From positions 1 through 44,366 of the forward strand of contig CALWQP010000025.1 of the NCBI GenBank assembly GCA_944383695.1: a DNA stretch of 44,366 nucleotides. The letters run 5' to 3'. The translations under genes were made by a program, and so were the position numbers. Below, piece after piece: positions 10,454-25,886 of this stretch (the stretch's first letter is position 1; each line of letters starts with the position of its first letter). Source of the stretch: an uncultured Mediterraneibacter sp. GTDB taxonomy: Bacteria > Bacillota > Clostridia > Lachnospirales > Lachnospiraceae. The notes beneath the pieces are model-generated. The model searched no databases, was not told the DNA's origin, and worked only from the letters and a program-made list of their open reading frames with translations.

Positions 10454-13400
10454 ATGAAGAGTAAAGTTCGCAGTGTGCTTGCATTATTCATGGTAGTCAG
10501 TATACTGTCGGGAACGCTGCCCATAACATCATTTGCAGAGAGCGCTTTTGATACCGTGGCAGACGTAGCAGAGGAGGATGAAAGGAGGGATGTCACGGCT
10601 GAGGAACCGGGGCTTACGGGGGTTCCCTGGTACTGGAGACCGGATGGAGTTGAATCAGAAGGCCAGGGGAGTATGACCATTGAAGATTATGATGGAAGCC
10701 AGCGGGATCAGATTGTTGACTTTATCGTGGAGAAGTATCCCCTGTGGGACGGTCTTGTATCAGCTAAGCTGACGATTAAGGAAGAAGATATGGGTGACAT
10801 TACCGGACTTGGACCAGATGCCACTCAGGATGAAATATATGAATGGTGGGGGCGCGAAGCGGAACAAATTGTCTATGATGCAAGAGAGGCGTTATCTGCA
10901 GAGAGAAGTTTTGCTTACTGGCGGTATATCTATGCCGCGGGACATCGGTTTACGACATCCCCAATTAATTTCGCATGGGATGGAGAAGGAGGGTATACCA
11001 TCACCATCAAGACAGGCGGAAATCCCTGGTTTCATAACTATCAAAAGGAAGTAGAACTCAGAAAATTTGTGCAGAATCTGTATTCTTCCGGGGGCGAACT
11101 CTATCCCTACCGTGCGGAAAACGATCTTTACAGCGATTATGAAAAATATACTGCTGTCTGGAACTGGATTAAGAACAATATTTCATACGGAGGCACTCAC
11201 TCTGCGTGGCAGGGGATCGTTCAGGGAGGCACGTTCTGTGATGGTTATTCTGCCGGCAATGCTTTGCTGTGCGCGTATGCGGGAGTGGAGTCTATTCCGG
11301 TCATTGGCTATATTCCCGCCGGGAAGCATGCGTGGAACTGGATCAAGATCGGAGAAAAGTATTTTGTGTCAGACAGTACAGCCAATAATGTGAATGGACA
11401 GTTTTTTCTTGTTGACCAGGAAGAAAAGGACGGTTATCACCAGCTGGATGAATACGAGGAGCCTGCCGAAATACAGGCCAGATATCCGCGATATACATTC
11501 ACATATAATGAAGCGTTGGAGGATGGGAACAAGATTGATTCGGGCAGGATTGGGGATAATCTTTCCTGGATACTTAGTGAAGGGGTGCTTACCATTTCCG
11601 GAAAGGGAGACATGCGCGATTTTGAAGATCCGTTTCTTGTTCCCTGGAGAAACAGCACTGAATACATTAAAAAAGTTGTCATAAAAGATGGAGTTACATC
11701 CATTGGTGCCAATGCATTTTATTCTTTGCAAAATATTAAAAAAGACGACTCTTCTACGGCAGAGATTGCGGAATCTGTGAAGAAAATTGGAAAACATGCT
11801 TTTTATGATCCGAATGATCCTGTGACGGAATTTTCCTCACGGCTTTCGTTGAAGAGCAGTTTTGAGAGGCAATATGAAGGAACTGGCATAAAGAGAGAGG
11901 ATATAGTTCACGAGGCGTACTATGGGACGACCCCGGCTTCAGACAGTGATTTTCAGTACAGATATTCCACGGACAAAGGAGTAAACTGGACGAACGGACT
12001 CCCCGAGAATGTCGGGACATATGTGATCGAGGTCACGCTGAAAGAGAAGAACTTGGGGGGAATAACTTATCATTCCAGCAAGGATACAATATCGGCAACT
12101 GTGACAAAAGGAGATTTCACTGTAAAATCGATACAAGCTGACACTGGACGTATCTATGACGGAACAACGAAAGTTAACATAGATTCTGTTTTTACGGACT
12201 ATTCCCATTGGTGGAACAGACATCTCGAAATGGGTGTGGATTATGACGTCACTGCCGAATACGTTTCTCCTGATGTGGGAACGTATACGGCTTATATGAC
12301 GGTGACACCCCGAAATACAGATCGTATGAACAATTATAACCTGACCTATCCGACGGAGCCTGTAAGTACAACTTTTAGGATCAGGCCCAAGACCTTGACT
12401 GAGGAAATGTTTGATAAGATTCCGGATCAGGCTCACACGGGAGCAGAAGTTCGTCCGCTTCTTTCTATTTCGGACAGTGAAGCAGATATTATGTCCTATG
12501 ATGACTTTACAGTGACTTATGAAAATAATGTCTCTGAGGGAACAGGATACGCTGTCGTAAAAGGGCAAAACAATTACACGGGAGAGGTACGACTTCCGTT
12601 TAAAATTGATGCTTCTCTGGAAGCGGAAACGACCCTCACGCCTATAAACAGCTCCGGAGCGGTTTCCAGAACGTTTACTTATCCGGAGATAATGAAGGTC
12701 GATCTGGAGCATGTGAAAAATATGCAGGGTCAGACAGTCAGTCTTCACTACACGGAAAAAGACGGTTCTCTTTCATCAGAGCCTCTTGCAGAGGCTATGG
12801 TCGGAGAAAATGGATCAGCAGAATTTACAGTCAATACACATGACAAAAAACTTCCTTCAGGCAGCCACACTCTTGTGGCCGTGCCTGCTCAGAAACAGAG
12901 CGCAGACTTGGAGATTGCTCATGTTGCGGTCACTCTGAATAAAATAAAACTTACGGCAACGCCTTCAGAGAGCTGCTACGTCGTAAAAGAGTATGACGGA
13001 ACAACAAAGGCCCTTACTTTGGAAGAAGGCGGTCGTCAGTATAATGTAAAACTGGATCTGGATAATGTGCTGGATGGGGATGAAGTGAATACCACATATG
13101 TCTGCGAACACGCCTCTGCAGAAATCGGAGATCATGATTTGCTCTTTAAAAATATTGCTCTGGCAGGGAAAGATGCAGATTTCTATCATCTTACTAATAC
13201 AACGGCGAGCATCGGCACGGTTAAGCACCCATTTGATGGGACATACACTATTCGGGCTGAGATTGTCAGAGCCGATGTGACGCCACATATTCAACTCGGA
13301 GAGAAGATTTATGACGGTACATCGGATGTGCCGATAACCGATATCAAATGGGATGGACTGGTAGGAGATGACACTCTGCGCCAGACGACCGATTATACGA

Positions 13401-16400
13401 TAGAGGCTCACTTCAATGAAACTAATGCGGGAAAACAGTCTGTTACGGTTACGATGAAACTACTCAATACACCGGCCACTTCCCATTACCGGCTCGTGTA
13501 TTATGACCCGTTTACAATCGAAGGCACGATCAAGCCAAAAGAAATTACTGAGCAGATGTTTGAGAAGATTCCCAAACAGTCTTACACCGGTGAAAAGATC
13601 GAGCCCGAGGTCAAAGTGGCTGCCACAGAAAAGTTGCTGACAAAAGAGAACTATACTCTTACATATGGCGAGAACATTAACGGCACGGGATCTGTCACGG
13701 TTACAGGCAAAAAGAACTACACGGGAGAGGTGACGCTGACATTCCCTATTTCAGGCGGTGAAGAACAGTCGTCGATCGACGGAGATTCATACAGAGGAAA
13801 CACACAGACTAGTGACTTTATATATGGAGATATCATAACTGTCAGAGGGTTGGCGTCAGGAGTGAATGAAGGCACAAAAGTATATTTATATAACGGTGAC
13901 ACTTTGCTTGGAGAAGCCTCGACAAATGAAAAAGGAAACTATGAGATTGACTATTACACGAATAAAAAGTCTATACCGGCTTCAGGAGAGACGGCTTCGC
14001 TCCGGCTCCGTCTGGGTGGAAAAACAGAGTCTGAGGCGCTGGCTGTAAAGGATATTAAGGTGTCCCTTTCTCCCAGACAGGTGACCGCGAGACTTACCGG
14101 AGATGCTGTAAAAGTTTATGACGGTACTACCGGACTGCCTGAGAACCACAGTATGAAAATCCTGCTGGATGATATACTTGCCGTAGATTCATCTGTTCTT
14201 ACGGCAGAAGGAAGTTACCGGTTTGAGTCTGCGTCTGCAGGCACAAAGACTGTAATTGCCTCAGATCTGATACTTGTCGATTCAACTTCAGCGGGAGTGG
14301 AAAGCTTTTATCAGCTTGCAGGTGATAAAGAAATCACGACAGAAGTTACAGGAGGTATAAATCAGGCGGTGATCACATCTGCCATTACTGCTCAGGATAA
14401 AGACTATGATGGCGAAAAGAGTGCAGACGTCACTGTTACTTTTTCAGGTCTGGCAGGAGATGAACAGCTCACATTGGATCAGGATTACACCGTAACGGCA
14501 TCTTTTGATAATAAAAACGCGGGTACGGATAAAACAGTCCGTGCAGTCATTACACTGAAGGATAAAGGCGCTGCCGCCAACTATAAATTTGACGGTGATA
14601 CCCCTACGAAGGCTGAGGTGACTGACCAGGCAGACATACGTCCATTAGCTCTTAAGAAAGAGATGTTTGTGCCGGTGGAGGACCAGCCGTGGACCGGAAG
14701 TCAGATTACTCCGAAGATTTCGATTGCAAAAGGATATGATCTGCTTACGAAGGATGATTTTAAGGTTACTTACGGAGAAAACATCAGGGAGAGCGGTACT
14801 GTTACAATCACAGGAACTAACAATTACACCGGTACAGTGGACCTTACTTTTACAATCGTGGGGGATGCACCCCTTCCTGAGCTGAGTGCCAGAACGTATA
14901 AAGGCAGTGCGGAGGAAACAAACTTCACCTACGGAGACACAATAACCGTCAAAGGAGCCGCAGCGCTGAGCAGCGGAGCATCAAACGGAAAAGTTACGTT
15001 ATATGTAAACGGCTCTCAGGTGGGAAAAACGGTGAAAGTAGACAGTGAGGGAACATATACGCTTACTTATAATACTGAGGATAAAGAGATTGGCGCTTCC
15101 GGTGATCCTGTTGTTCTGGAGCTTCGCCTGTCCGACAGCATCGATGAAAAGGCGGCGTCTGTACAGACGAAAATCGTTCTTTCTCCGAAGGAAGTGACAG
15201 CAGTGCTGTCTGGAGATGCGAAAAAGACTTATGATGGGACAGCCGATGTTCCTGATGCCCACAGTCTGAAGCTGTCTCTGGAAGGCGTACTTGAAGCTGA
15301 TAAAGATCAGGTGAGCGTAAGCGGCGCTTACGCCTTTACAGATGTGAATGCGAACACTTCTGAAGTTATCGCGACAAATGTGACGCTTTCTAATGCAGCG
15401 GAGAACGTGGATGTGGCAGGCTTCTATCGTCTGCCGGAGGGAACAGAAGTTTCTGCCCATGTTGCGGGCGGGATCAGCCCGGCCGTACTTACAGCTGATG
15501 CTGAGGCAAAAGACAAGATTTATGACGGTACAGCTGATGCCGAGGCAGTTGTAACGCTAGCGGGACTGCAAAATTCAGAGACTCTGACATCCGGGACAGA
15601 TTACACTGTGACTGCCAGTTTTGAAAATGAAAATGCAGCTGCCGGCAAAAAGGTAACAGTTAACGTGACCCTTTCGGATTCTCCGGCTGCATCCAACTAC
15701 TGCTTCAGAGGAAGCGGAGAAACGGAAGAAAAAACAGTGACCTGTACAGTGCAGGCTGACATTACTCCGCTGACGCTTACGACAGAGATGTTCATCCCGA
15801 TTGCGGATCAGACATATACAGGAAGTCCACTCACACCGCAGGTGACATTGGCAGAAGCTTATGCATCCCTTTTGGATGCAAATGATTACAAGGCTGCCTA
15901 CGGCTCTAATACCGATGCGGGAACCGGACTTGTTTCCATAGCCGGACAGAATAACGCTCAGGGCAGTGTGGATCTTTACTTTAGGATTACAGGGCTTATG
16001 ACGACTCTTACAGCGCAGACAGAGGATGAATCGGGAAATCCGACGTCCCAGTTTGTATATGGAGACAGGATTGTTGTTACAGGAACTTTTGCCACGACAG
16101 ATGCCAGAGCGCGTTCTCTTCGGGCGGCGTCGCAGGCCGGAGATGGGCAGGTTGCCCTTTATGTGGGTGATATTCAAGTATCTGAGCCACAAAATGTTTC
16201 TATGGATAATCGTTCCTTTACGTTGTCAGTAAATACAGGCGACAAGGAAATTCCTGCAGGAGATACAGTTTTGAAACTTCGTTATCTGGGCAGCGCATCT
16301 CTGGCAGCTTCCGAGATAGATATTCCGATACGTCTGGAGAAACGTGTACTGACTCCTGAGGCCCATTCGGATTCTTTGATTACAAAGACTTATGACGGAA

Positions 16401-17746
16401 CCGTTGAGGTTCCTGCGGATCAGACACCCCGGATTACTCTGGTCGGATCAGTTGCAGACGGCGACACTCCGACAGCTTCCGCTCCTGTGTGGAGCTATGC
16501 CGCAGCCGATGCTGCAGAAACTGTCGACATCATAGGAAGCGGTCTTGTGCTGGATGGGTCATGGCAGAGGTGGTATGATCTGTCCACAGATACTGTGACA
16601 CTTACAGGCCGAGGCAGGATCGAGAAAAGTGCGCAGAGTGCGCAGAATGAGCGTGTGGATCTGCCTGCAGGTACAGCATCGTCATCCGTGACCAAACTTC
16701 TTTCCGGGCTTGTACCGGAAGATGCGGGAGGAGTACCGGTCTATAAGGTGATAAGTTATACCGAGAACGGGCTGGTTTCTGCAAGTGTCAATGAGAAGGG
16801 TGAACTAAGTGTTGTCTCAAAGGAAATAACAGATGTTTCAATGACGGATACCGTTATAGTAGAAGTAAGCGGTATGGCAAACTACAGTGATTTTACAATT
16901 GAAGTTACGGTGGGTTACGCGGACAGAACCCCGGTGACTATTACATTTACTCCCCGTCAGACTGCTGCTGTGTACAATGGACAGCAAATACAGGGATATG
17001 GGGAGATTACGGCAGTTTATACGGATGAGAACGGTTTTGCTCAACCGTATAACAATCTCTCATATATTTATGAGGGGACAACCCGGTCGGGAGAGGTTTA
17101 CGGACCGGTCAGCGCGCCTCCTTCCCAGGCGGGAAGCTATACGGTGACTGCTTCTGTGCCTGAGACAGATATAATGTATACAGGAAGCCAAAGCTTTGCT
17201 TTTGTAATAGAGCCAGCTTCTCTCACATTCAAAGCTGATAATATCCAGATTGAGCAGGGAGCGGCAATGCCTGTATTTACCTACACAGTAGAAGGTCTTG
17301 TAAGCGGGGACAGTCTGATTACCGAGCCCGTTCGGACGACTTCTGCAGCGGATACCAGTATGCCGGGAATCTATACTATCAGCATTGCCGGAGCCGATGC
17401 GGGAGCGAATTATATAATTGCCGGTTATGTGAGTGGTACCCTGACAATTACAGCCGTTTCCAATCCGGAGCCTGATCCGGGGCAGCCACCAGTCCTGGAT
17501 CCGGATCCTGGGCAGCCGTCGGTTCCGGATTCTGCTTCGGGAATTCAAGCAGATCCAACTGTTCAAAACACCGTTGCAGCGTCCGAGTCAGAAGGAAAGA
17601 AAAAAGCTCAGATCCCGCCGAAGACGCGAGATAATGACTTGGTGGGTCTACATGTTTTAGTTATTGCTGGAGCATTTATAATAAGCGTTCTTGGAGTTCT
17701 CGGCATGCAAAATAAGCGTAACCGGAGAAAAAATAAAACAACGTAA
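10454..17746 (+). CDS. Giant secreted repeat protein with transglutaminase-like domain
   Basis: 2430 residues. A signal peptide ends near residue 28 (TSFA|ES). A transglutaminase-like core lies at ~230-310 with a readable triad: C262 in GGTFCDGYS, H292 in GKHAWNW and D307 in FVSDST. The long remainder is built of repeats: YDGT-type modules begin near residues 569, 846, 952, 1221, 1317, 1593, 1689 and 1979 (KIYDGT, KTYDGT and variants). These alternate with modules ending NNYTG or KNYTG near 706, 1086 and 1456, and an MBG-like region lies at ~2165-2320. A Pro/Asp linker leads to a C-terminal PKTRDND, a hydrophobic segment and a basic tail (NKRNRRKN). This resembles a sortase sorting signal, but the usual glycine of the PKTGD class is arginine. 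Role is probably adhesion or modification of surface polymers. It is monocistronic, between a weak promoter and a terminator. Confidence 0.85.
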   Translation: MKSKVRSVLALFMVVSILSGTLPITSFAESAFDTVADVAEEDERRDVTAEEPGLTGVPWYWRPDGVESEGQGSMTIEDYDGSQRDQIVDFIVEKYPLWDGLVSAKLTIKEEDMGDITGLGPDATQDEIYEWWGREAEQIVYDAREALSAERSFAYWRYIYAAGHRFTTSPINFAWDGEGGYTITIKTGGNPWFHNYQKEVELRKFVQNLYSSGGELYPYRAENDLYSDYEKYTAVWNWIKNNISYGGTHSAWQGIVQGGTFCDGYSAGNALLCAYAGVESIPVIGYIPAGKHAWNWIKIGEKYFVSDSTANNVNGQFFLVDQEEKDGYHQLDEYEEPAEIQARYPRYTFTYNEALEDGNKIDSGRIGDNLSWILSEGVLTISGKGDMRDFEDPFLVPWRNSTEYIKKVVIKDGVTSIGANAFYSLQNIKKDDSSTAEIAESVKKIGKHAFYDPNDPVTEFSSRLSLKSSFERQYEGTGIKREDIVHEAYYGTTPASDSDFQYRYSTDKGVNWTNGLPENVGTYVIEVTLKEKNLGGITYHSSKDTISATVTKGDFTVKSIQADTGRIYDGTTKVNIDSVFTDYSHWWNRHLEMGVDYDVTAEYVSPDVGTYTAYMTVTPRNTDRMNNYNLTYPTEPVSTTFRIRPKTLTEEMFDKIPDQAHTGAEVRPLLSISDSEADIMSYDDFTVTYENNVSEGTGYAVVKGQNNYTGEVRLPFKIDASLEAETTLTPINSSGAVSRTFTYPEIMKVDLEHVKNMQGQTVSLHYTEKDGSLSSEPLAEAMVGENGSAEFTVNTHDKKLPSGSHTLVAVPAQKQSADLEIAHVAVTLNKIKLTATPSESCYVVKEYDGTTKALTLEEGGRQYNVKLDLDNVLDGDEVNTTYVCEHASAEIGDHDLLFKNIALAGKDADFYHLTNTTASIGTVKHPFDGTYTIRAEIVRADVTPHIQLGEKIYDGTSDVPITDIKWDGLVGDDTLRQTTDYTIEAHFNETNAGKQSVTVTMKLLNTPATSHYRLVYYDPFTIEGTIKPKEITEQMFEKIPKQSYTGEKIEPEVKVAATEKLLTKENYTLTYGENINGTGSVTVTGKKNYTGEVTLTFPISGGEEQSSIDGDSYRGNTQTSDFIYGDIITVRGLASGVNEGTKVYLYNGDTLLGEASTNEKGNYEIDYYTNKKSIPASGETASLRLRLGGKTESEALAVKDIKVSLSPRQVTARLTGDAVKVYDGTTGLPENHSMKILLDDILAVDSSVLTAEGSYRFESASAGTKTVIASDLILVDSTSAGVESFYQLAGDKEITTEVTGGINQAVITSAITAQDKDYDGEKSADVTVTFSGLAGDEQLTLDQDYTVTASFDNKNAGTDKTVRAVITLKDKGAAANYKFDGDTPTKAEVTDQADIRPLALKKEMFVPVEDQPWTGSQITPKISIAKGYDLLTKDDFKVTYGENIRESGTVTITGTNNYTGTVDLTFTIVGDAPLPELSARTYKGSAEETNFTYGDTITVKGAAALSSGASNGKVTLYVNGSQVGKTVKVDSEGTYTLTYNTEDKEIGASGDPVVLELRLSDSIDEKAASVQTKIVLSPKEVTAVLSGDAKKTYDGTADVPDAHSLKLSLEGVLEADKDQVSVSGAYAFTDVNANTSEVIATNVTLSNAAENVDVAGFYRLPEGTEVSAHVAGGISPAVLTADAEAKDKIYDGTADAEAVVTLAGLQNSETLTSGTDYTVTASFENENAAAGKKVTVNVTLSDSPAASNYCFRGSGETEEKTVTCTVQADITPLTLTTEMFIPIADQTYTGSPLTPQVTLAEAYASLLDANDYKAAYGSNTDAGTGLVSIAGQNNAQGSVDLYFRITGLMTTLTAQTEDESGNPTSQFVYGDRIVVTGTFATTDARARSLRAASQAGDGQVALYVGDIQVSEPQNVSMDNRSFTLSVNTGDKEIPAGDTVLKLRYLGSASLAASEIDIPIRLEKRVLTPEAHSDSLITKTYDGTVEVPADQTPRITLVGSVADGDTPTASAPVWSYAAADAAETVDIIGSGLVLDGSWQRWYDLSTDTVTLTGRGRIEKSAQSAQNERVDLPAGTASSSVTKLLSGLVPEDAGGVPVYKVISYTENGLVSASVNEKGELSVVSKEITDVSMTDTVIVEVSGMANYSDFTIEVTVGYADRTPVTITFTPRQTAAVYNGQQIQGYGEITAVYTDENGFAQPYNNLSYIYEGTTRSGEVYGPVSAPPSQAGSYTVTASVPETDIMYTGSQSFAFVIEPASLTFKADNIQIEQGAAMPVFTYTVEGLVSGDSLITEPVRTTSAADTSMPGIYTISIAGADAGANYIIAGYVSGTLTITAVSNPEPDPGQPPVLDPDPGQPSVPDSASGIQADPTVQNTVAASESEGKKKAQIPPKTRDNDLVGLHVLVIAGAFIISVLGVLGMQNKRNRRKNKTT

Positions 17747-18679: not shown

Positions 18680-19414
18680 TTAGTGATCAAACCACCGCAG
18701 ATTAAATCGGTCAGTCAGTCTCAAGAGTTGATTTTTAAGAAAAAGCATAATCAATACAATGGAAAGCAGAGTAATCGGCAAGATGAGTGAAAATCCATTT
18801 AGAATACCGTTGAAAAGAGAACCTGCTAGGGCTCCTGCGACAAAGCTGCCTGCAATGAGAAAATAATGTCTGAAGTTTACAAGATGTCTGCGGTCCTGGA
18901 CATGGATATATGCGCACAGTTCTTGTATTCCGCTGCGCAGATTTCCTGTACACATGACAGAAATATAGGACAGCCCATGAAGTGATCTGAAAGCCTGTGT
19001 CTGTAGAGCACAAATGAAGGATATGATAATGTTGGCCACTCGGTTTGAGCCGGCAGGAATAAACATACACACGGTCAGGAGAAGGATTTCTAGAATGAGT
19101 ATGATATGTCTCCATTTTATATAGCTTGCCCTGCTCATACGCCGATGAATATTTTCTGCAAGAAATACGCCGAACAGAAACGATAAGATGGGGAGTATAT
19201 AATAGGACGCACCCTGAAAATCCCCTTCTGCCAGTTGGATGCCCAGCAGAACGAGATTTCCGGTCTGACCATTGGAAAAAACCTCTCCCCTGTATAGATA
19301 AGTGTAAGCGTCGAGAAATCCTCCTGACATTGTCAGAAGAATCCCGACGATGAGGGTTTCTGAGATTCGTATTCTGTTATCTTCATGTTTAATCTCAGTT
19401 AGCATATTCTCCAC
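18680..19414 (-). CDS. YoaK family (DUF1275) membrane protein
   Basis: 244 residues with about six hydrophobic segments. The start of the domain, LTMSGGFLDAYTYLYRG followed by EVFSNGQTGNLVLLGIQLAE, is diagnostic for the YoaK/DUF1275 family, as is YISVMCTGNLRSGIQELCAY in the second half. The function of this family is unknown; a transport role is often supposed. It starts with GTG at 19414, nine bases after GGAGG inside the end of the PEBP gene, which it overlaps by 20 bases, so the two are translationally coupled. The last ten codons run up to the IS66 fragment, and the C-terminal end may have been altered by that insertion. Confidence 0.88.
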   Translation of the reverse strand: MENMLTEIKHEDNRIRISETLIVGILLTMSGGFLDAYTYLYRGEVFSNGQTGNLVLLGIQLAEGDFQGASYYILPILSFLFGVFLAENIHRRMSRASYIKWRHIILILEILLLTVCMFIPAGSNRVANIIISFICALQTQAFRSLHGLSYISVMCTGNLRSGIQELCAYIHVQDRRHLVNFRHYFLIAGSFVAGALAGSLFNGILNGFSLILPITLLSIVLIMLFLKNQLLRLTDRFNLRWFDH

Positions 19415-19895
19415 TGATGGTTACCTCCCCGAGAATGTGCCCTTTCATTTTTCGGTACATCTCATTCATGTAGAATCCATCTTTCAGATCTAGTACAGTA
19501 TCCAAGGCATAGACATGGATATCGTATATGTGCGGGGCATCCGGCGGAGCCATGCCTCCGTAGTAACTGCAGGATTCTGCCGGGTGGCTTCCGCCCTGTA
19601 AGCTCAGCCATGAGTTGACGCCCTGGACAAAATCATCTGCCGTCTGGCTTTCGTTTTCTCTCAATTCTGTTCTGCAGATATTTGCGGCAACCCAGTGTAC
19701 CCATGTGAATCCACCGCTCACCGGGAAAGCATCTTTGTCGTCGATCACGACGGCAAAGCTTTTCGTTTCCTCCGGTGCGTCTTTGATGGACAGGGGGAGA
19801 GAATATGTCGGCATGCCGAGTTCGTTGCACGCACCCCTCTTTCCGTATTTGTCCTGAATGATTCCATTCACGATTCCACTGCTTGTTACTTTCAT
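19395..19895 (-). CDS. YbhB/YbcL-type PEBP family protein
   Basis: 166 residues of the phosphatidylethanolamine-binding/Raf-kinase-inhibitor-like family. Readable landmarks are SLPLSIKDAPEETKSFAVVI with DDKD, the WVHWVAANI strand, and a C-terminal APHIYDIHVYALD. These form the anion-binding pocket. Bacterial members have no settled function. The start at 19895 follows AAGGAG; an extension to 19949 lacks one. It heads a two-gene operon with the YoaK family gene. A palindrome, ACGTTGCTTTTGCAACGT, centred 41.5 bp before its predicted transcription start suggests activation by the adjacent Crp/Fnr regulator. Confidence 0.88.
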   Translation of the reverse strand: MKVTSSGIVNGIIQDKYGKRGACNELGMPTYSLPLSIKDAPEETKSFAVVIDDKDAFPVSGGFTWVHWVAANICRTELRENESQTADDFVQGVNSWLSLQGGSHPAESCSYYGGMAPPDAPHIYDIHVYALDTVLDLKDGFYMNEMYRKMKGHILGEVTISGEYAN

Positions 19896-19968
19896 AGTTG
19901 TTCTCCTTTCCGCGGCGTTGGCTGTCAAGGGGTTCCATGCCGCTGACAATCTTATATATTATGCCGCC

Positions 19969-20023: not shown

Positions 20024-20686
20024 TTATAATGTTTTTAACTGGAACCAGCTATGCCTGTAATCCAGAATCCCCTCTTTTTTCATTTTGGACAGTTCTTTGG
20101 AAAGGGCACAGCGGTCGACGGAGAGATAGTCTGCCATCTGCTGTCTGTCATAAGGGATAGTAAAAGAGGGAGTCCCATTTTTTTGATATTCCTCCGAGAG
20201 AAAGGCAGAGACTTTTTCCCTCAGGTTTCTGCGGGAGAGGATGTCTGCTTTTTTCATATAGTTTAGTTTTTTTTGGATGATTATGGTCATCAGGTTGTGA
20301 TACAGTTTCAAAATCCCATTGTCACCGCGGCGTGCGGCATCCAGTATCTTCTGTGTCCTGATAAAAAGCAGGTTTGACGGCTCTACCGCGACAAGGGAGA
20401 AGAAAAGGGGAGTTCGGGAGATGCTGTGTGCTTCCCCGAACAGCGTATTCTTTGTAAATTCTGCAATAATATTCTGATTCCCCCAGAAATCTTCGGATAT
20501 CATGTGAATCCTGCCCTCCAGAACGATTCCGGTATCTTCTATTACATCTTCCGGGTAGGAGAGAAACTCGCCGGAAGATGCATTTTTTATGTGGGGATAA
20601 AGTACTGTGTCAAGCCGGGCAAGTTCGTCCACTGTGATGCCCTGAAAAAGCGGAATGTGGGAAAGTATGTCTGCGTTCAGTATCAT
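20024..20686 (-). CDS. Crp/Fnr family transcriptional regulator
   Basis: 220 residues: an N-terminal cyclic-nucleotide-binding-type beta barrel (~15-115; IPLFQGITVDELARLDTVL, then GIVLEGRIHMISEDFWGNQN and LFGEAHSISRTPLFFSLVA) and a C-terminal helix-turn-helix at ~165-215 (PYDRQQMADYLSVDRCALSK). The cAMP-binding arginine and the N-terminal cysteine cluster of Fnr are not obvious, so the effector is unknown. GGAGGTG precedes the ATG at 20686; a longer start at 20755 is not supported. It lies between two transcription units that each carry a similar operator-like site, so it is the likely regulator of both. The site at 20696-20713 overlaps its own leader, which could give autoregulation. Confidence 0.9.
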   Translation of the reverse strand: MILNADILSHIPLFQGITVDELARLDTVLYPHIKNASSGEFLSYPEDVIEDTGIVLEGRIHMISEDFWGNQNIIAEFTKNTLFGEAHSISRTPLFFSLVAVEPSNLLFIRTQKILDAARRGDNGILKLYHNLMTIIIQKKLNYMKKADILSRRNLREKVSAFLSEEYQKNGTPSFTIPYDRQQMADYLSVDRCALSKELSKMKKEGILDYRHSWFQLKTL

Positions 20687-20695
20687 TTTACACCT

Positions 20696-20739
20696 CCGTT
20701 GCAAATACCACATACAAGTTATGGAAATGATACTACAAT
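20696..20739 (+). promoter_or_regulatory. Putative Crp/Fnr operator and -10 box of the CoA-transferase operon
   Basis: TACAAT at 20734-20739 is a plausible -10 box with a weak -35. A site CCGTTGC-AAAT-ACCACAT at 20696-20713 agrees at 10 of 14 arm positions with the perfect palindrome at 19995-20012, and its centre is again 41.5 bp from the predicted start. The left arm is good and the right arm weak, so this is suggestive only. Confidence 0.4.
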
Positions 20740-20769
20740 ACGGACAAATTCGCAAGGAGGTGCAGAAAA

Positions 20770-21963
20770 ATGGGAAAAGGACTGTTGGAAGGAGTAAAGG
20801 TTCTTGATCTGACGAGGGTGCTGGCAGGACCGTACTGTGGTATGATGCTGGCTGATATGGGAGCGGAGGTGATCAAAATAGAAGTGCCGGGTAAAGGAGA
20901 CGATGCCAGAGGAAACTTCCCGATCATCAATGGAGAGAGCGCGTATTACATGAACTTAAACCGCAACAAGAGAGGGATGACCCTGAATCTGAAAAGCGAG
21001 AAGGGAAAGGACATTTTGCGTAGGCTTGTGTCCCAAAGCGATATCCTGATTGAGAATTACCGACCGGGCGTCATGGAAAAGCTGGGCTTGGGGTACGAGG
21101 ATCTGAAAAAGGTCAATCCTGGGCTGATTTACGGCTGTGTATCAGGGTTTGGACATTATGGCCCCTATTCGCAAAGAGCCGGATACGATATTATCGGGCA
21201 GGCGATGAGCGGACTGATGAGCACCACCGGATGGCCGGGCGGGAAGCCCACCCGGACGGGAACTGCAATTGCGGATGTGATGGGAGGTCTGTCCTGCTGC
21301 ACCGGGATTCTGGCAGCGTATATCAACAGGCTGAAAACAGGAGAAGGAGAGAAAGTAGACGTGTCTCTGGTGGATTCCATGGTATCTTCACTGGAGATTA
21401 TCAACATCATCTACCTGTGTACCGGAAAAGTGCCGGAGAGGATTGGAAACAGGTATGAGGCAATCTATCCCTATGATTCTTTTGAGGCTTCGGACGGTTC
21501 GGTGGTGATCGGAGCGGGAAATGACAAGCTGTTCGGACTGCTGTGTGAGCAGATGGAAAAGATAGAGCTGCTGGAGGATGAGCGGTTTTGCTGCAACAAC
21601 AGCCGAGTGCTTCACCACGCTGAGCTTAAACCTATCATAGAAGAGTGGCTCCGGGATAAGAAGATTGATGATATCGTGGATTTGCTGCTGGATGCAGGAA
21701 TTCCCGCCGCTCCCATCAATACGATCGACCGCGTTGCGAAAGATCCGCATATTGCGGGGGCAAGGGAGATGTTTGTTGAAATCGACCATCCGAAAGCCGG
21801 GAAACTAAAAATGACGGGAAACCAGATCAAGCTGACCAACCATAAGATCGATACATTCAGACCGGCTCCCACTCTGTCACAGGATACGGAAGAAATATTG
21901 AGGAAGTATCTGGATATGTCGGAAGAGGATGTAAAACTGCTGGTAAAAGAACAGGTAGTATAA
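20770..21963 (+). CDS. CaiB/BaiF family (class III) CoA-transferase
   Basis: 397 residues with the class III CoA-transferase layout: GVKVLDLTRVLAGPYCGMML at the N-terminus, GAEVIKIEVPGKGDDAR, NRNKRGMTLNLKSEKGK, the catalytic aspartate D169 in TAIADVMGG, and a C-terminal DHPKAGKLKMTGNQIKL. These enzymes move CoA between carboxylic acids through an aspartyl-CoA mixed anhydride. Known relatives act on oxalate, carnitine, bile acids, malate/citramalate and itaconate. As first gene of the operon with a hydratase pair, a lyase and a PrpF isomerase, it most likely activates a hydroxylated branched dicarboxylate such as citramalate or dimethylmalate. AAGGAGGTG precedes the ATG. Confidence 0.92.
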   Translation: MGKGLLEGVKVLDLTRVLAGPYCGMMLADMGAEVIKIEVPGKGDDARGNFPIINGESAYYMNLNRNKRGMTLNLKSEKGKDILRRLVSQSDILIENYRPGVMEKLGLGYEDLKKVNPGLIYGCVSGFGHYGPYSQRAGYDIIGQAMSGLMSTTGWPGGKPTRTGTAIADVMGGLSCCTGILAAYINRLKTGEGEKVDVSLVDSMVSSLEIINIIYLCTGKVPERIGNRYEAIYPYDSFEASDGSVVIGAGNDKLFGLLCEQMEKIELLEDERFCCNNSRVLHHAELKPIIEEWLRDKKIDDIVDLLLDAGIPAAPINTIDRVAKDPHIAGAREMFVEIDHPKAGKLKMTGNQIKLTNHKIDTFRPAPTLSQDTEEILRKYLDMSEEDVKLLVKEQVV

Positions 21964-22008
21964 AGGCGGGGAACACGAAATGACAATGACGGTACAGAGG
22001 TGCGGAAC

Positions 22009-23265
22009 ATGGGAATGACGATGACAGAAAAAATATTAGCCCGGGGATGCGGGCAAAAGAGTGTAAGGCCGGGGGAAATCGTATGGTGTAAAGTGGACGG
22101 CGCCATGATGGACGATATCCTTGGCCCCCGGGTAGAGATAGCGGAGAAACTAAAGGAGCTTGGGGCTTCCATATGGGACGCCGGCAGGGTCACCATTGTA
22201 TCAGATCACTATACTCCGCCCGCTAACAGCAAACAGGCAGAAATCGTGAAATTTACGAGAGAGTGGGCGCGGCAGCATGGGGTCTCCAATTATTTTGAAT
22301 TCGCCGGACCGTGCCATCAGGTCATGGTGGAAAATGGGCGCGTGTGCCCCGGGGATATTATTGTGGGAACAGATTCCCATACTTGTACATATGGCGCGCT
22401 GGGTGCCTTTTCCACAGGCATTGGGTCCACGGAGATGCTGGGAGTTCTTGTGACAGGAGAGATATGGCTGCGAGTACCGGAGAGCATCCGGATCGTTTTG
22501 CGGGGAGAGCTTCCTGAAAGTGTGATGGCAAAAGATGTGGCGCTGAAAGTGATCGGCACACTGGGGCATCATGGGGCAACCTACAAAGCCCTTGAATTTA
22601 CTGGCGATACATTTGAAAAAATGATCATGGATGAGCGGCTGTGCATAGCCAACATGGCAGTGGAAGCAGGAGCTAAGAATGGGATTTTTCCGTTTGATGA
22701 AGTGACAGGGGATTATCTGAGAGAGCAGGGGACTCCCTGCGGCGAAGCCCTGGCAAGCGATGAGGACGCTGTGTATGCACAGACAGTCGAATTTGAATCA
22801 GAACAGCTTGAGCCTCTCTGCACATGTCCCCATGAGGTAGACAATGTAACGGAGATAAAGAACCTGGACAATGTAACGGTTGATCAGGCTTACATCGGTT
22901 CCTGCACCGGGGGACGGTATCACGATCTGAAGATGGCGGCGGATTTCCTGAAAGGAAAGAAAGTTGCCAGAGGGGTGAGGCTTTTAGTCTCCCCGGCTTC
23001 GGCGCAGGTTTGGAGACAGTGTGCAAAAGATGGGATACTAAATACACTGGCAGAGGCAGGGGCGGTCGTGCTGGCATCAAGCTGTGGGGCATGCCTGGGA
23101 GTGCATTCCGGAGCTATCGGATCCGGAGAAGTATGCGTGTCATCTACGAACCGGAACTTTATCGGCAGGATGGGGAGCAAGGAAGGGCAGATCTATCTGG
23201 CATCCCCTTTGTCTGTAGCAGCCAGCGCAGTCATGGGAAAACTGACGGACCCAAGGATGATATAA
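22009..23265 (+). CDS. Aconitase-type hydratase, large subunit (LeuC/DmdA-like)
   Basis: 418 residues of the LeuC/homoaconitase branch. DSHTCTYGALGAFSTGIGST and GSCTGGR are present. The three [4Fe-4S] ligands can be read as C299 (SCTGG), C359 and C362 (SSCGACLG). The family hydrates or isomerises unsaturated di- and tricarboxylates. The organism would use a canonical LeuCD in leucine synthesis, but no leuA or leuB is adjacent, and the operon context (CoA-transferase, HMGL-like lyase, PrpF) points to a catabolic dehydratase such as 2,3-dimethylmalate dehydratase or citraconate hydratase. ATG at 22009 follows GAGG by 8 bases; a GTG at 22000 is possible. The small subunit follows after 9 bp. Confidence 0.9.
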   Translation: MGMTMTEKILARGCGQKSVRPGEIVWCKVDGAMMDDILGPRVEIAEKLKELGASIWDAGRVTIVSDHYTPPANSKQAEIVKFTREWARQHGVSNYFEFAGPCHQVMVENGRVCPGDIIVGTDSHTCTYGALGAFSTGIGSTEMLGVLVTGEIWLRVPESIRIVLRGELPESVMAKDVALKVIGTLGHHGATYKALEFTGDTFEKMIMDERLCIANMAVEAGAKNGIFPFDEVTGDYLREQGTPCGEALASDEDAVYAQTVEFESEQLEPLCTCPHEVDNVTEIKNLDNVTVDQAYIGSCTGGRYHDLKMAADFLKGKKVARGVRLLVSPASAQVWRQCAKDGILNTLAEAGAVVLASSCGACLGVHSGAIGSGEVCVSSTNRNFIGRMGSKEGQIYLASPLSVAASAVMGKLTDPRMI

Positions 23266-23274
23266 GGAGGAAAC

Positions 23275-23802
23275 ATGGAAAAAGAGAGTGGTGTATACAG
23301 AGGAAGATGCTTAAAATATGGGGATAATATTAATACGGACATTATTTCTCCCCCGATGTATATGGAGCTGCCCATAGAGCAGGCCGCCGCATATGCCATG
23401 AGTCCCATTGATCCGGAGTTTGCTTCAAAATGCAGACCGGGGGATATCTTTGTGGCAGAGGAGAATCTGGGCAGCGGATCCAGCCGGGAAACAGCGCCGC
23501 TGGCGCTAAAGGAGCTGGGCATCCGTATTGTTCTGGCAAAATCTTATGCAAGGATATTTTACCGCAACTGCATCAATCTGGGGATTCTTGCCATTGAATG
23601 CAGCCAGACGGACAAAATCGCCTATTTTGACGAGATAGAGATCGACTATAAAAAGGGAGTGATCACGAACAGGAGCAGTCAGGAGACATACAGGTGTCAG
23701 GCGATTCCAAATCATATTGTCGGTCTGACAGAAAAAGGCGGGCTTTTTGCCTGCCTCATGGAAAGGAGAGAGAAGGTAGATGGATCAGATATACATTTAT
23801 GA
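23275..23802 (+). CDS. Aconitase-type hydratase, small subunit (LeuD/DmdB-like)
   Basis: 175 residues with the swivelling-domain signature of LeuD-type subunits: GRCLKYGDNINTDIISPPMY at the N-terminus, the substrate loop GSGSSRETAPLAL, and KSYARIFYRNCINLGILAIE. It assembles with the preceding large subunit into a heteromeric Fe-S hydratase. Substrate choice in this family depends partly on the loop after NTD; here it reads IISPPMYMELP, close to the archaeal-type and DmdB forms. AAGGAGG precedes the ATG, and the end overlaps the lyase gene by 23 bases. Confidence 0.9.
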   Translation: MEKESGVYRGRCLKYGDNINTDIISPPMYMELPIEQAAAYAMSPIDPEFASKCRPGDIFVAEENLGSGSSRETAPLALKELGIRIVLAKSYARIFYRNCINLGILAIECSQTDKIAYFDEIEIDYKKGVITNRSSQETYRCQAIPNHIVGLTEKGGLFACLMERREKVDGSDIHL

Positions 23803-24709
23803 AGTTGGACCAAGGGACGGTTGGCAGAATGTGGCGGAGCTGATTTCCACAGAGGAAAAAAAGAAGATCATTGATGGCCTGGCAGATGCAGGCGTCTCCC
23901 ATATCCAGATCTGCTCCTTTGTTAGTCCCAGGGCGATCCCCCAGATGCGGGATGCCAAAGAGGTAGCAAAGTACTGTGTCAGCCGGTATCCGAATATAGA
24001 TCTGCTGGCGCTGGTGCCGAATCTCCGCGGCGCAAAGGACGCGCAGGAGGCGGAAATCCGGCATCTCTCTTATGTGGTCTCTTTAAGCGAAAGCCACAAT
24101 AAAGCAAACATAAACCGTACAAGGGAGGAGTCGCTGCAAGAACTGGAGAATATCATGGAGGCTTACCCTGATCTTAATATCTGCGTGGATATTGCCACTG
24201 CGTTCGGATGCCCCTTTGAGGGTAAACCGAAAGAAGGAGAACTGGCAAAATTCGCAGAGCAGGTGTATGGGATGGGAATAAGAGAAATCTGCCTGTGCGA
24301 TACCATCGGTGCGGCAAATCCCCGCCAGGTGCGCGAGGAAATCCGCCGTGTGGAAAAAACCTGTCCGGAACTTGAACTCATGGTCCATATCCACGACACA
24401 AGAGGCATGGGACTGGCATGTACGCTGGCGGCGGCTGAAGCCGGGGTCACCAAAGTCCAGTCTACCCTGGGAGGACTGGGCGGATGTCCTTTCGCCCCGG
24501 GGGCATCGGGCAACACAGCGACAGAAGATCTTGTATATATGTTCCAAAATATGGGATATGATACAGGGATCGACTTTGGCAGGCTGCTGAAGCTGTCAAA
24601 ATACCAGAAGTCTGTCATACAGGGGAATTACAGCGGACATCATATGATGATCCAAATGATGCAGGAATATGGAGAGAAGGGGGACGGACAGATATGCACA
24701 GCCAGATGA
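23780..24709 (+). CDS. HMG-CoA lyase-like enzyme (HMGL/DRE-TIM family)
   Basis: 309 residues forming one TIM barrel of the HMGL type. Metal and catalytic positions are readable: EVGPRDGWQN (R12, D13) at the first strand, HIHDTRGMG on the later strand, and the cysteine loop GLGGCPFAPGASGN followed by ATEDLVYM, as in true HMG-CoA lyases. These enzymes cleave 3-hydroxy-3-methyl acyl-CoAs by retro-Claisen reaction. No leucine-degradation genes (carboxylase, acyl-CoA dehydrogenase) are nearby. Citramalyl-CoA and 2,3-dimethylmalyl-CoA have the same tertiary alcohol beta to the thioester, so a role as citramalyl- or dimethylmalyl-CoA lyase is inferred. It overlaps both neighbours. Confidence 0.88.
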   Translation: MDQIYIYEVGPRDGWQNVAELISTEEKKKIIDGLADAGVSHIQICSFVSPRAIPQMRDAKEVAKYCVSRYPNIDLLALVPNLRGAKDAQEAEIRHLSYVVSLSESHNKANINRTREESLQELENIMEAYPDLNICVDIATAFGCPFEGKPKEGELAKFAEQVYGMGIREICLCDTIGAANPRQVREEIRRVEKTCPELELMVHIHDTRGMGLACTLAAAEAGVTKVQSTLGGLGGCPFAPGASGNTATEDLVYMFQNMGYDTGIDFGRLLKLSKYQKSVIQGNYSGHHMMIQMMQEYGEKGDGQICTAR

Positions 24710-25842
24710 ATATGATACGGTGTGCCATTGTGCGAGGTGGCACGAGCAAAGGAATCTTTATCATGGAGAATGAACTCCCAGTGGACCCGAAGGAAAGAGA
24801 CCGTGTGCTCCTCTCTGTTTTCGGAAGCCCGGATATCCGTCAGATTGATGGCCTGGGCGGCGCGGACGTGCTCACCAGCAAACTTGCAATAATCTCTCCG
24901 TGCCGCACAGGCGAGGCGGATGTGGATTATACATTCGGACAGGTCAGCATTGAAAAAGCCTTCATCGACTACGGCGGCAACTGTGGGAATATTTCATCAG
25001 CAGTAGGTGGTTTTGCCATTGACATGGGACTTGTCCGTGCAGTGGAGCCGGTTACAACAGTCAGGATACGCCTGACAAACACGAACCGCATCCTGACGGC
25101 TTCTGTTCCTGTAACCGATGGAAAGGCCGCGGTGGAAGGAGACTATCACATTGATGGAGTCCCCGGTACCGGGGCGAAAATCACTCTGGACTGGTCAGAG
25201 ACAGCGGGCGGTATCACAGGAAATGTCCTGCCAACTCGAAGAGCGCAGGATATCATATCCGCAGACGGCAGAAACTACAGGGTGTCTGTAGTGGACGCGG
25301 GAAATATCGTGGTCTTTGTCCATGCCGGGGAACTGGGGCTTAAAGGGACGGAAACACCGGAACAGATTGAAAGGGACAGCGGGCGAATGCGGCTTATCGA
25401 GCGGATCAGGGGAGAAGTATGCACGAAGATCGGTCTGGTGAAGCGGTGGGAGGATGCACAGAAAGTGACGCCGTTTCAGCCGTTTTTTGTGATTGTCAGC
25501 AAAGAACGCAGCCATGAGTGCTTCAATGGGCGGAAAATAGAAGAGGGAGAAAGCCACATAACCTCCCGGATCGTATTTATGGGACATATGCATAAAGCCT
25601 ACCCTGTCACAGGAACCGTGGCTACTGCAGCTGCGGCGAGGATACCGGGCAGTGTGGTATATGATCTGCTAAGTGATAAGGCACATAATGAGCCTGTGCT
25701 CAAGATCGCCCACCCGTCCGGCATAATAGAGGCGGAAGCCCGGGTGTCTGTGCGGGATGGGAAAATCAGTGTGGAGAAGATTGGAATATACAGGACTGCG
25801 AGAATGATTATGGATGGGTATGCGTATGTAAAGAAATCATAA
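24694..25842 (+). CDS. PrpF family isomerase
   Basis: 382 residues of the PrpF/DUF453 family (two diaminopimelate-epimerase-like halves). Characteristic segments are CAIVRGGTSKGIFI at the start, GLGGADVLTSKLAII, DYGGNCGNISSAVG and PTRRAQDI. PrpF isomerises 2-methylaconitate and the related Mii of Eubacterium barkeri moves the double bond of 3-methylitaconate to dimethylmaleate. In this operon it probably supplies the maleate-type substrate for the LeuCD-like hydratase, for example itaconate to citraconate or methylitaconate to dimethylmaleate. It starts within the lyase gene (16-bp overlap). The next promoter, that of clpB, begins 16 bp after its stop. Confidence 0.9.
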   Translation: MHSQMNMIRCAIVRGGTSKGIFIMENELPVDPKERDRVLLSVFGSPDIRQIDGLGGADVLTSKLAIISPCRTGEADVDYTFGQVSIEKAFIDYGGNCGNISSAVGGFAIDMGLVRAVEPVTTVRIRLTNTNRILTASVPVTDGKAAVEGDYHIDGVPGTGAKITLDWSETAGGITGNVLPTRRAQDIISADGRNYRVSVVDAGNIVVFVHAGELGLKGTETPEQIERDSGRMRLIERIRGEVCTKIGLVKRWEDAQKVTPFQPFFVIVSKERSHECFNGRKIEEGESHITSRIVFMGHMHKAYPVTGTVATAAAARIPGSVVYDLLSDKAHNEPVLKIAHPSGIIEAEARVSVRDGKISVEKIGIYRTARMIMDGYAYVKKS

Positions 25843-25843
25843 A

Positions 25844-25886
25844 TTAGCACTCGATACTTGACATGGCTAACAACTCTTGCTATATT
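25844..25886 (+). promoter_or_regulatory. clpB promoter with CIRCE-like HrcA site
   Basis: TTGACA (25858-25863), a 17-bp spacer and TATATT (25881-25886) form a strong sigma-A promoter. TTAGCACTC at 25844-25852 is a perfect left CIRCE arm; after exactly 9 bases CATGGCTAA (25862-25870) matches 6 of 9 of the right arm GAGTGCTAA. The element overlaps the -35 box, so HrcA repression with heat-shock release is likely, though the right arm is degenerate. Confidence 0.7.

Follow-up and report, generated by a model that had tools for sequence, protein, structure and literature searches.

A five-gene block from an uncultured Mediterraneibacter that may encode a CoA-dependent catabolic route for itaconate or citraconate

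Which substrate is used by a gene block that combines a CoA-transferase, a two-subunit Fe-S hydratase, a lyase of the HMG-CoA lyase family, and a PrpF-type isomerase? The question was raised by contig CALWQP010000025.1 of an uncultured Mediterraneibacter sp., of which positions 1 to 44,366 constitute the window, i.e., the whole stretch of DNA that was analyzed. The initial annotation had claimed five linked open reading frames, and all five were found on the + strand in one tightly packed block with intergenic gaps of, in order, 36, 9, -23, and -16 bp. No transporter gene was found in the window operon. The features of the region are as follows.

19395..19949, - strand: flanking PEBP/YbhB-like gene (PF01161)
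20024..20755, - strand: Crp/Fnr-type regulator, divergent from the block (PF00027 and PF13545; sequence)
20687..20769, no strand: probable divergent control region, with AAGGAGG ahead of the CoA-transferase ATG (sequence read)
20770..21963, + strand: class III (CaiB/BaiF) CoA-transferase, 397 aa (PF02515, 428 bits; D169)
22000..23265, + strand: LeuC-like [4Fe-4S] hydratase large subunit (PF00330, 327 bits; SCTGGR)
23275..23802, + strand: LeuD-like hydratase small subunit with GSGSSRET and the loop NINTDIISPPMYMEL (PF00694, 71 bits; alignment of 14 small subunits)
23780..24709, + strand: HMG-CoA-lyase-family lyase, 309 aa, proposed (R)-citramalyl-CoA lyase (PF00682, 168 bits; NCBIfam PRK05692, 293 bits)
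24694..25842, + strand: PrpF/Mii-type isomerase, 382 aa, proposed itaconate/citraconate isomerase (PF04303, 368 bits)

The large subunit starts at GTG 22000 or, as homologues suggest, at ATG 22009. The regulator likely starts at a later ATG near position 20686, and about 83 bp would then separate the start codons of the divergent genes. Scanning of this interval (20687..20769) revealed no promoter-like match on the + strand. Over the block, 11 promoter-like matches (shuffles, 6.0; SD, 2.9) and 7 terminator-like matches (shuffles, 4.5; SD, 2.5) were counted, neither of which was used as evidence; a strong match of the promoter/terminator scan lies before clpB at 25858-25886.

With a probability just short of even, the block is an operon for the catabolism of a branched C5 dicarboxylate, by which itaconate or citraconate would be converted to acetyl-CoA and pyruvate. 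We infer the substrate, direction, stereochemistry, and order of the steps as follows. The PrpF/Mii-type enzyme would convert itaconate to citraconate by a double-bond shift, and the LeuCD-type Fe-S hydratase would add water to form (R)-citramalate. The class III CoA-transferase would then generate (R)-citramalyl-CoA with an acyl-CoA as donor, and the HMG-CoA-lyase-family enzyme would cleave it to acetyl-CoA and pyruvate. The transferase and the lyase may represent the more widespread core, with the isomerase and the hydratase as a front end in some lineages; with such a front end, itaconate or citraconate could be used as well as citramalate.

Analysis of the CoA-transferase upheld its assignment to class III, with a PF02515 match and the catalytic aspartate at the position given in the initial annotation. 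Its best match among solved proteins is succinate-hydroxymethylglutarate CoA-transferase (9br6, 311 bits), and no substrate-specific equivalog was passed. The lyase lies above the cut-off of the PRK05692 HMG-CoA lyase subfamily (293 versus 246 bits), and its best solved match is HMG-CoA lyase (2cw6, 221 bits). The positions of human R41, D42, H233, H235, C266, and N275 are identical in all 84 relatives compared. The position of human E72 is occupied by Q43 in the window lyase and by Q in 60 of the 84 relatives; tried as a lyase marker of the five-gene set, it showed no relation to the set (of the 10 full-set rows, 7 have Q and 3 have E).

That both best solved matches are HMG enzymes would count against the C5 scheme. 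Together with the subfamily assignment of the lyase, it favors a reading for HMG/3-methylglutaconate, in which HMG is activated, HMG-CoA is cleaved to acetyl-CoA and acetoacetate, and the isomerase and hydratase feed unsaturated relatives in. HMG and larger acids are possible substrates. As an account of the operon, however, this reading is unlikely: the operon contains no acetoacetate-handling gene, the lyase has Q in place of human E72, and the characterized PrpF and LeuCD enzymes known to us act on butenedioate- or citrate-type acids, none of them on glutaconates.

The last two steps of the C5 scheme have a counterpart in Chloroflexus, in which an HMGL-like (R)-citramalyl-CoA lyase (EC 4.1.3.46) occurs with a CoA-transferase (EC 2.8.3.20); we know of no isomerase/hydratase front end for this pair. 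The comparison is one of reactions, which would be the same, and not of sequences. EC 4.1.3.46 and succinyl-CoA:(R)-citramalate CoA-transferase (EC 2.8.3.20) are treated as an established pair in an excerpt of PMC8307300. The lyase reaction itself thus has a precedent. (R)-Citramalyl-CoA would also fit the lyase because TIM-barrel HMG-CoA lyases are specific for (S)-HMG-CoA, which corresponds to (R)-citramalyl-CoA. In passages of PMC6689899, these lyases are described as (S)-specific, and (S)-citramalyl corresponds to (R)-HMG.

The Ict-Ich-Ccl pathway of Pseudomonas and Yersinia, which has a MaoC-type hydratase and a CitE-type lyase, would share its end products and purpose with the window operon if the substrate is itaconate. 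Two PF03328 (CitE-type) matches were found in the genome, in frames of about 500 aa and barely over the 25-bit cut-off (29.2 and 28.7 bits); no such match lies inside the operon. In the cited passages, the Ict-Ich-Ccl pathway proceeds by activation and then hydration via (S)-citramalyl-CoA (PMC13307414, PMC12290011, PMC9875883), whereas the scheme proposed here would hydrate the free acid first and run in the (R)-series. The initial annotation had already noted this difference in order. According to an excerpt of PMC9875883, the Pseudomonas aeruginosa cluster expressed in Pseudomonas putida allowed no use of (R)-citramalate or citraconate, which are, in contrast, the intermediates proposed for the window.

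The hydratase carries the predicted Fe-S cysteines C299, C359, and C362, counted from the ATG (C302, C362, and C365 from the GTG), and the GSGSSRE motif. Two motif positions that the initial annotation missed set it apart from isopropylmalate isomerase LeuCD, likewise a two-subunit Fe-S hydratase. SCTGGR in LeuC was accompanied by GSSRET in LeuD in 13 of 13 pairs, whereas all 10 pairs of the housekeeping or Dmd type combined SCTNGR with GSSREH; in this tally, regions fetched more than once were counted a single time, and L115, which has a LeuC match and no small subunit, was left out. A further SCTGGR/GSSRET case outside the tally is L144. The SCTGGR-type LeuC rows share one fork in a quick tree (SH-aLRT, 95). 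The LeuC and PrpF quick trees were built from 23 chosen loci with only single tblastn matches that covered at least 80% of the query.

Window LeuC falls below the LEU2 equivalog cut-off (473.3 versus 610.65 bits) and LeuD below that of leud (147.5 versus 245.85 bits). LeuC passes the subfamily models hacA_fam, IPMI_arch, and PRK00402, with isopropylmalate/citramalate isomerase as its best match, and the small subunit passes the LeuD/DmdB subfamily model. The initial annotation had asked whether this hydratase is the only LeuCD of the strain. The genome has a second LeuCD (44% identity to the window LeuC and 45% to LeuD) and gave a single match to LeuA_dimer and two to Iso_dh; leuA and leuB are absent from the window operon. 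A role as the leucine enzyme of the strain is disfavored by the other LeuCD, the failed equivalog cut-offs, and the different motifs.

The best solved match of the isomerase is 3-methylitaconate isomerase (3g7k, 370 bits), followed by solved PrpF at 223 bits. The methylitaconate isomerase reaction has the same form as the conversion of itaconate to citraconate. Window-type PrpF rows share a fork (SH-aLRT, 96) beside, and not inside, the Mii-type pair L116/L118 (SH-aLRT, 99), and the window protein shares 48 to 50% identity with the proteins of this pair (50% with L118). Mii/Dmd-type clusters occur in genomes of the same class (L116, L118). This observation and the best solved match favor a reading in which methylitaconate is isomerized to dimethylmaleate, hydrated to dimethylmalate, activated with CoA, and cleaved to propionyl-CoA and pyruvate, the last enzymes replacing the Dml lyase of Eubacterium barkeri.

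Mii/DmdAB/Dml of E. barkeri nicotinate fermentation resembles the window block in its PrpF-family isomerase and LeuCD-family hydratase, which in both cases would act on a branched dicarboxylate in its free form, ahead of C-C cleavage. The L118 cluster, in contrast, has a CoA-independent lyase of the PEP_mutase/ICL family in place of the CoA-transferase and HMGL-family lyase. The hydratases differ as well: the L118 pair (SCTNGR/GSSREH; LEU2, 717 bits for LeuC versus 473 in the window) falls with housekeeping LeuC, and the window pair belongs to the other group. A search of the genome revealed no PEP_mutase-family lyase and, by eye among three PF02310 matches, no protein like the B12-dependent 2-methyleneglutarate mutase. 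In one genome, G237, a window-type set occurs alongside a Dmd/Dml-type cluster. Methylitaconate lost its place as first candidate after G237 and the nicotinate-type cluster of L118, with its nearly identical Mii, were found, and we now consider it quite improbable as the substrate. The CoA-dependent branched-dicarboxylate route put forward in the initial annotation is still the best fit, and its linkage recurs; its methylitaconate/dimethylmalate version was weakened.

PrpF and aconitase-superfamily enzymes isomerize and hydrate tricarboxylates elsewhere. The block might accordingly isomerize trans-aconitate or a 2-methylaconitate isomer, hydrate it to citrate or methylcitrate, and, after activation, release oxaloacetate and acetyl- or propionyl-CoA. 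Aconitase X in the sets of L074, L079, and L144 and a second aconitase in L079, which have no use in the C5 scheme and count against it, would fit such chemistry, as would the common PrpR_N-type regulators. The PrpF scores (370 versus 223 bits), the isopropylmalate/citramalate isomerase match of LeuC, and the MatC-family proteins among neighboring carriers make it a rather remote alternative.

The C5 scheme was further examined against the distribution of the genes. The search for a conserved five-gene set, suggested in the initial annotation, covered 80 HMGL loci retrieved by homology; in 10 of them all five genes lie together, and five different gene orders occur. L117 is one further genome, with the set spread over 14 kb. 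Two of the 10, L021 and L026 (MAG records), are near copies of the window block (96 to 100% identity per protein). Since the block is nearly identical in these two and the set is rearranged in distant bacteria, its linkage is not due to chance. On the HMGL tree (matches with >45% identity and >240 residues; neighbors labeled if within 6.5 kb and in the same orientation), the full-set label changes 7 times, at least 4 of them by well-supported branches, against a shuffled mean of 9.7.

A LeuC match was absent from the stretch examined in 39 of 52 transferase-positive HMGL loci (transferase, >45% identity and 40% coverage; other genes, E ≤ 1e-8 at any position of the stretch), so a hydration step is not necessarily the source of the lyase substrate. 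The congeners G035 and G009 kept the transferase, lyase, and isomerase and lack the dedicated hydratase, which, like the missing transporter of the window operon, counts against the C5 scheme; a housekeeping-type LeuC is present in both. The hydratase is absent and genes are broken in G012; in G014, LeuC, LeuD, and PrpF are broken, and the interval from the regulator to what is left of LeuC contains no transferase. Alternatively, the block could comprise a citramalate/HMG-cleaving pair and a separate isomerase/hydratase pair, neighbors by convenience. The pairs without LeuCD, the three-gene forms that persist in two congeners, the dispersed set of L117, and L144 (strain CE91-St43), with LeuCD, transferase, and PrpF together and its HMGL not adjacent but at another locus, L072, speak for such a division; the overlapping reading frames in the window and the recurrence in five orders leave it a small probability.

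The C5 scheme can accommodate loci with housekeeping-type enzymes. LeuCD serves in the threonine-independent isoleucine route. Because such enzymes can take citraconate, the LeuC of G035 and G009 and the LeuCD of L063, located beside lyase and transferase, would fit it; L063 also indicates that the linkage can occur with a hydratase other than the SCTGGR/GSSRET type, which counts against the C5 scheme. In excerpts, isopropylmalate dehydratase converts citramalate to citraconate (PMC5882075), and the threonine-independent isoleucine route proceeds through the (R)-isomer of citramalate (PMC8307300).

Itaconate is a macrophage product. Tentatively, and with the balance leaning against it, we suggest a second, (R)-stereochemical itaconate route in gut anaerobes, consisting of free-acid isomerization, hydration by an SCTGGR/GSSRET LeuCD, CoA activation, and HMGL-type cleavage; judged by sequence, it would use enzyme families different from those of the known route. 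If so, commensals could consume itaconate and its isomer citraconate, commensal Clostridia would be expected to take part in clearing them from the gut, genes now named leuC/leuD, prpF, and HMG-CoA lyase would acquire functions, and the two motifs would be a signature for finding such hydratases. Itaconate is abundant in the feces of healthy people (Little et al. 2024, as related in PMC12290011). In passages of PMC12290011, PMC13307414, and PMC9875883, the route by which bacteria degrade itaconate to pyruvate and acetyl-CoA is Ict-Ich-Ccl; reduction of itaconate to methylsuccinate by gut bacteria is also described. Among the matches listed from open-licence PMC, mostly titles and abstract starts, no paper on this five-gene set appeared; the "prpF" matches in PMC12915319 are plasmid names (pRPF) and not the gene.

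Carriers and regulators in the 52 transferase-positive loci also speak for the C5 scheme. MatC/CitMHS carrier matches lie anywhere in the stretch in 20 loci and Na_sulph_symp matches in 10, and PrpR_N regulator matches, with a query that may also catch other sigma-54 activators, were found in 34. The Crp/Fnr-type regulator adjoins the block also in L021-L026, and the PEBP/YbhB-like gene recurs near such operons in L025, L031, L040, and L045.

Analysis of the five-gene block at positions 20770 to 25842 revealed a real and recurrent gene set. It most likely constitutes a CoA-dependent route for branched dicarboxylates, and the most likely substrates, given about an even chance, belong to the itaconate/citraconate/(R)-citramalate group of C5 acids. 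The reading frames of the initial annotation are present where it placed them, and profile matches gave each the family it had named: class III CoA-transferase (T), LeuC (C), LeuD (D), a lyase of the HMG-CoA lyase family (HMGL; H), and a PrpF/Mii-type isomerase (P). They form a single + strand block with successive gaps of 36, 9, -23, and -16 bp. The gene for a Crp/Fnr-type regulator is divergent from the block, with about 83 bp between the start codons if its internal ATG is used. The clpB gene starts 61 bp past prpF; because clpB has a strong promoter-like match of its own, prpF is most likely the last gene of the block.

Features of the window
10454-17746: 2,430-aa secreted repeat protein; by eye, N-terminal transglutaminase-like region and C-terminal membrane anchor
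19395-19949, - strand: PEBP/YbhB-like gene near the operon
20770-25842, + strand: five-gene block

The residues singled out by the initial annotation, D169 of the CoA-transferase and three LeuC cysteines in Fe-S motifs, were found, as were the conserved K63 and C97 of PrpF. The lyase positions corresponding to human R41, D42, D204, H233, H235, C266, N275, E279, and D280 are identical in 84/84 relatives. The human E72 position is Q in the window lyase and in 60/84 relatives, with no relation to the full set. We take the listed residues of the four proteins to be catalytic and the solved reference chains to be human (lyase) and E. barkeri (isomerase). Among solved proteins, the best matches of the window transferase and lyase are HMG enzymes; this and the Q at the E72 position count against the C5 reading.

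Named genomes were scanned with the HMGL alignment, and the best 80 of 434 relatives were used as loci; since these were picked by similarity to the window HMGL, fractions of loci are not general frequencies. The nearest named records in this sample are Mediterraneibacter MAGs. The block recurs with 96 to 100% identity per protein at L021, which is from Candidatus Mediterraneibacter intestinipullorum, and at L026. A 1,090-aa reading frame (L021 positions 12518-15787) lies between prpF and clpB in L021 and is absent from the window and L026. A CoA-transferase relative is present in 52 of the 80 loci and absent from 28. A locus was labeled a full set if CoA-transferase, LeuC, LeuD, and PrpF lay within 6.5 kb of HMGL on the same strand. 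The genome search proposed in the initial annotation gave ten such HMGL rows among the 80 loci (L021, L025, L026, L031, L040, L045, L057, L074, L079, and L094), including the two near copies of the window and L057, whose frames are broken.

Gene orders in full-set loci
T-C-D-H-P: window, L025
T-C-D-P-H: L031; L040, L045, and L057 (in these three, MatC follows T)
T-H-C-D-P: L074
P-C-D-T-H: L079
P-C-D-H-T: L094

Neighbors of the 52 transferase-positive loci were counted as matches anywhere in each locus stretch, with query families named by profile match except for DctM (by eye). LeuC matched in 13/52, LeuD in 13/52, PrpF in 12/52, and a PrpR_N-type regulator in 34/52. The associated transporters, also proposed for inspection, were MatC/CitMHS (20/52), Na_sulph_symp (10/52), and DctM (9/52) carriers. 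Locus L067, from a Fusobacteriaceae MAG, has every gene of the set except PrpF in the 16.6 kb covered. An independent draw on 391 genomes of the class gave PrpF relatives (E ≤ 1e-20) in 7; within the regions inspected, the window-type set was found in the own genome and G237, a weaker second match of G301 lying outside these regions. A PEBP/YbhB-like gene is also close to such operons in other Clostridia (L031, L040, and L045) and was seen in 8/52 transferase-positive loci (five being close window relatives) versus 1/28 other loci; E. coli ybhB is also near one PrpF-like and one aconitase-like gene.

The possibility that the hydratase is the strain's only LeuCD did not hold: the own genome carries another LeuCD, 44% (LeuC) and 45% (LeuD) identical to the window pair and neighbored by genes resembling asd and thrC (by eye), together with one LeuA_dimer and two Iso_dh matches. 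Window LeuC and LeuD score above broad subfamily models and under the isopropylmalate equivalog cutoffs. The LeuC motif SCTGGR accompanied LeuD GSSRET (window type) in 13/13 nonredundant pairs, with L144 as one further pair, and SCTNGR accompanied GSSREH in 10/10 pairs (L116, L118, L063, and, from the own genome and those of six congeners, the housekeeping pairs). At L063, this LeuCD of housekeeping type adjoins MatC, HMGL, and transferase genes. In quick, midpoint-rooted trees, one LeuC fork holds the SCTGGR rows (SH-aLRT 95), and the window-type PrpF rows share one fork (96) beside the Mii-type pair (99). Because the residue after GSSRE differs among three solved small subunits (H in isopropylmalate/citramalate isomerase, Q in homoaconitase, S in a third), a role in specificity is plausible.

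Locus L118 of genome G320 is by gene content a nicotinate fermentation cluster: its PrpF barely differs from the solved 3-methylitaconate isomerase (match of 806 bits), and it also encodes one B12-binding and one MutL-like protein, a PEP_mutase/ICL-family lyase, a molybdenum hydroxylase subunit, and a LeuCD, which was taken as a DmdAB reference. Genome G237 has a cluster of the nicotinate kind (L116; PrpF 47%, LeuC 45%, LeuD 41%, and a PEP_mutase-family lyase). At a distance of roughly 10 kb, it also has a window-type set (L117; PrpF 62%, LeuC 61%, LeuD 60%, transferase 62%, HMGL 51%, and MatC), whose genes are spread over 14 kb and interspersed with a regulator and remnants of PrpF. In L117, a degenerate second copy of PrpF lies at about 6754-7642, between the hydratase and isomerase genes.

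The window isomerase is nearest to Mii, which shifts an exocyclic double bond inward, and would convert itaconate to citraconate, the reaction of Mii minus one methyl group. LeuCD serves in the threonine-independent isoleucine route. Excerpts of published work describe the conversion of citramalate to citraconate by isopropylmalate dehydratase (PMC5882075), the (R) isomer of citramalate in that route (PMC8307300), the action of TIM-barrel HMG-CoA lyases on (S)-HMG-CoA (PMC6689899), and (R)-HMG as the counterpart of (S)-citramalyl (PMC6689899). Therefore, (S)-HMG would correspond to (R)-citramalyl, and because the isoleucine route uses (R)-citramalate, we infer that the (R) series is common to hydratase and lyase. 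The known itaconate pathway follows the (S) series, whereas the window scheme would follow the opposite, (R) series. According to an excerpt of PMC9875883, the P. aeruginosa cluster in P. putida supports growth with itaconate, mesaconate, methylsuccinate, and (S)-citramalate and gives no growth with citraconate or (R)-citramalate. Single pieces of the pathway are already known; we found neither the combination nor the hydratase type described among the matches listed from open-license PMC papers.

Other results speak against the scheme. Close HMGL relatives (≥55%) occur in 6 of 37 genomes of the genus, counting the own. Genomes G035 and G009 (both 92% complete) have full-length transferase, lyase, and isomerase genes, and the only LeuC in either is of housekeeping type, window-type LeuC being absent. 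It was likewise not found in G012, where transferase, lyase, and isomerase are broken. In G014, LeuC, LeuD, and PrpF are broken, and no transferase lies between the regulator and the LeuC remnant; in the 19 kb examined, G026 has only transferase and lyase. Either a housekeeping LeuCD stands in or the hydratase is dispensable for the main substrate. Both parts of aconitase X (L074, L079, L144), a second aconitase (L079), and a GGGtGRT-family protein (L079, L094, L144) are unaccounted for by the four-step scheme. At L144, LeuCD, transferase, PrpF, and aconitase X lie within about 13 kb, and the HMGL of this chromosome is elsewhere (L072). A protein with a subthreshold NifU_N match is common to L074, L079, and L094; this protein, aconitase X, and the GGGtGRT-family protein cluster with PrpF and window-type LeuCD.

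A search of the own genome (ALTERNATIVES) found no PEP_mutase-family lyase, and its three B12-binding matches resemble, by eye, a protein of MetH type, a radical-SAM protein, and IMP dehydrogenase; therefore, no nicotinate branch was seen in these searches. Because two CitE-family matches are barely above the cutoff and one is under it, the genome gives no clear evidence of a CitE-type route. The 28 of 80 HMGL loci without a CaiB-type transferase (e.g., L041, L053, and L069), mostly from Spirochaetes and Acidimicrobiia, perhaps represent another uncharacterized HMGL pathway. Their neighbors are an aldehyde dehydrogenase-like protein (cluster 3; in 22 loci), a protein of 497 aa resembling, by eye, class I CoA-transferases (in 20 loci), and two halves that by eye are transketolase-like.
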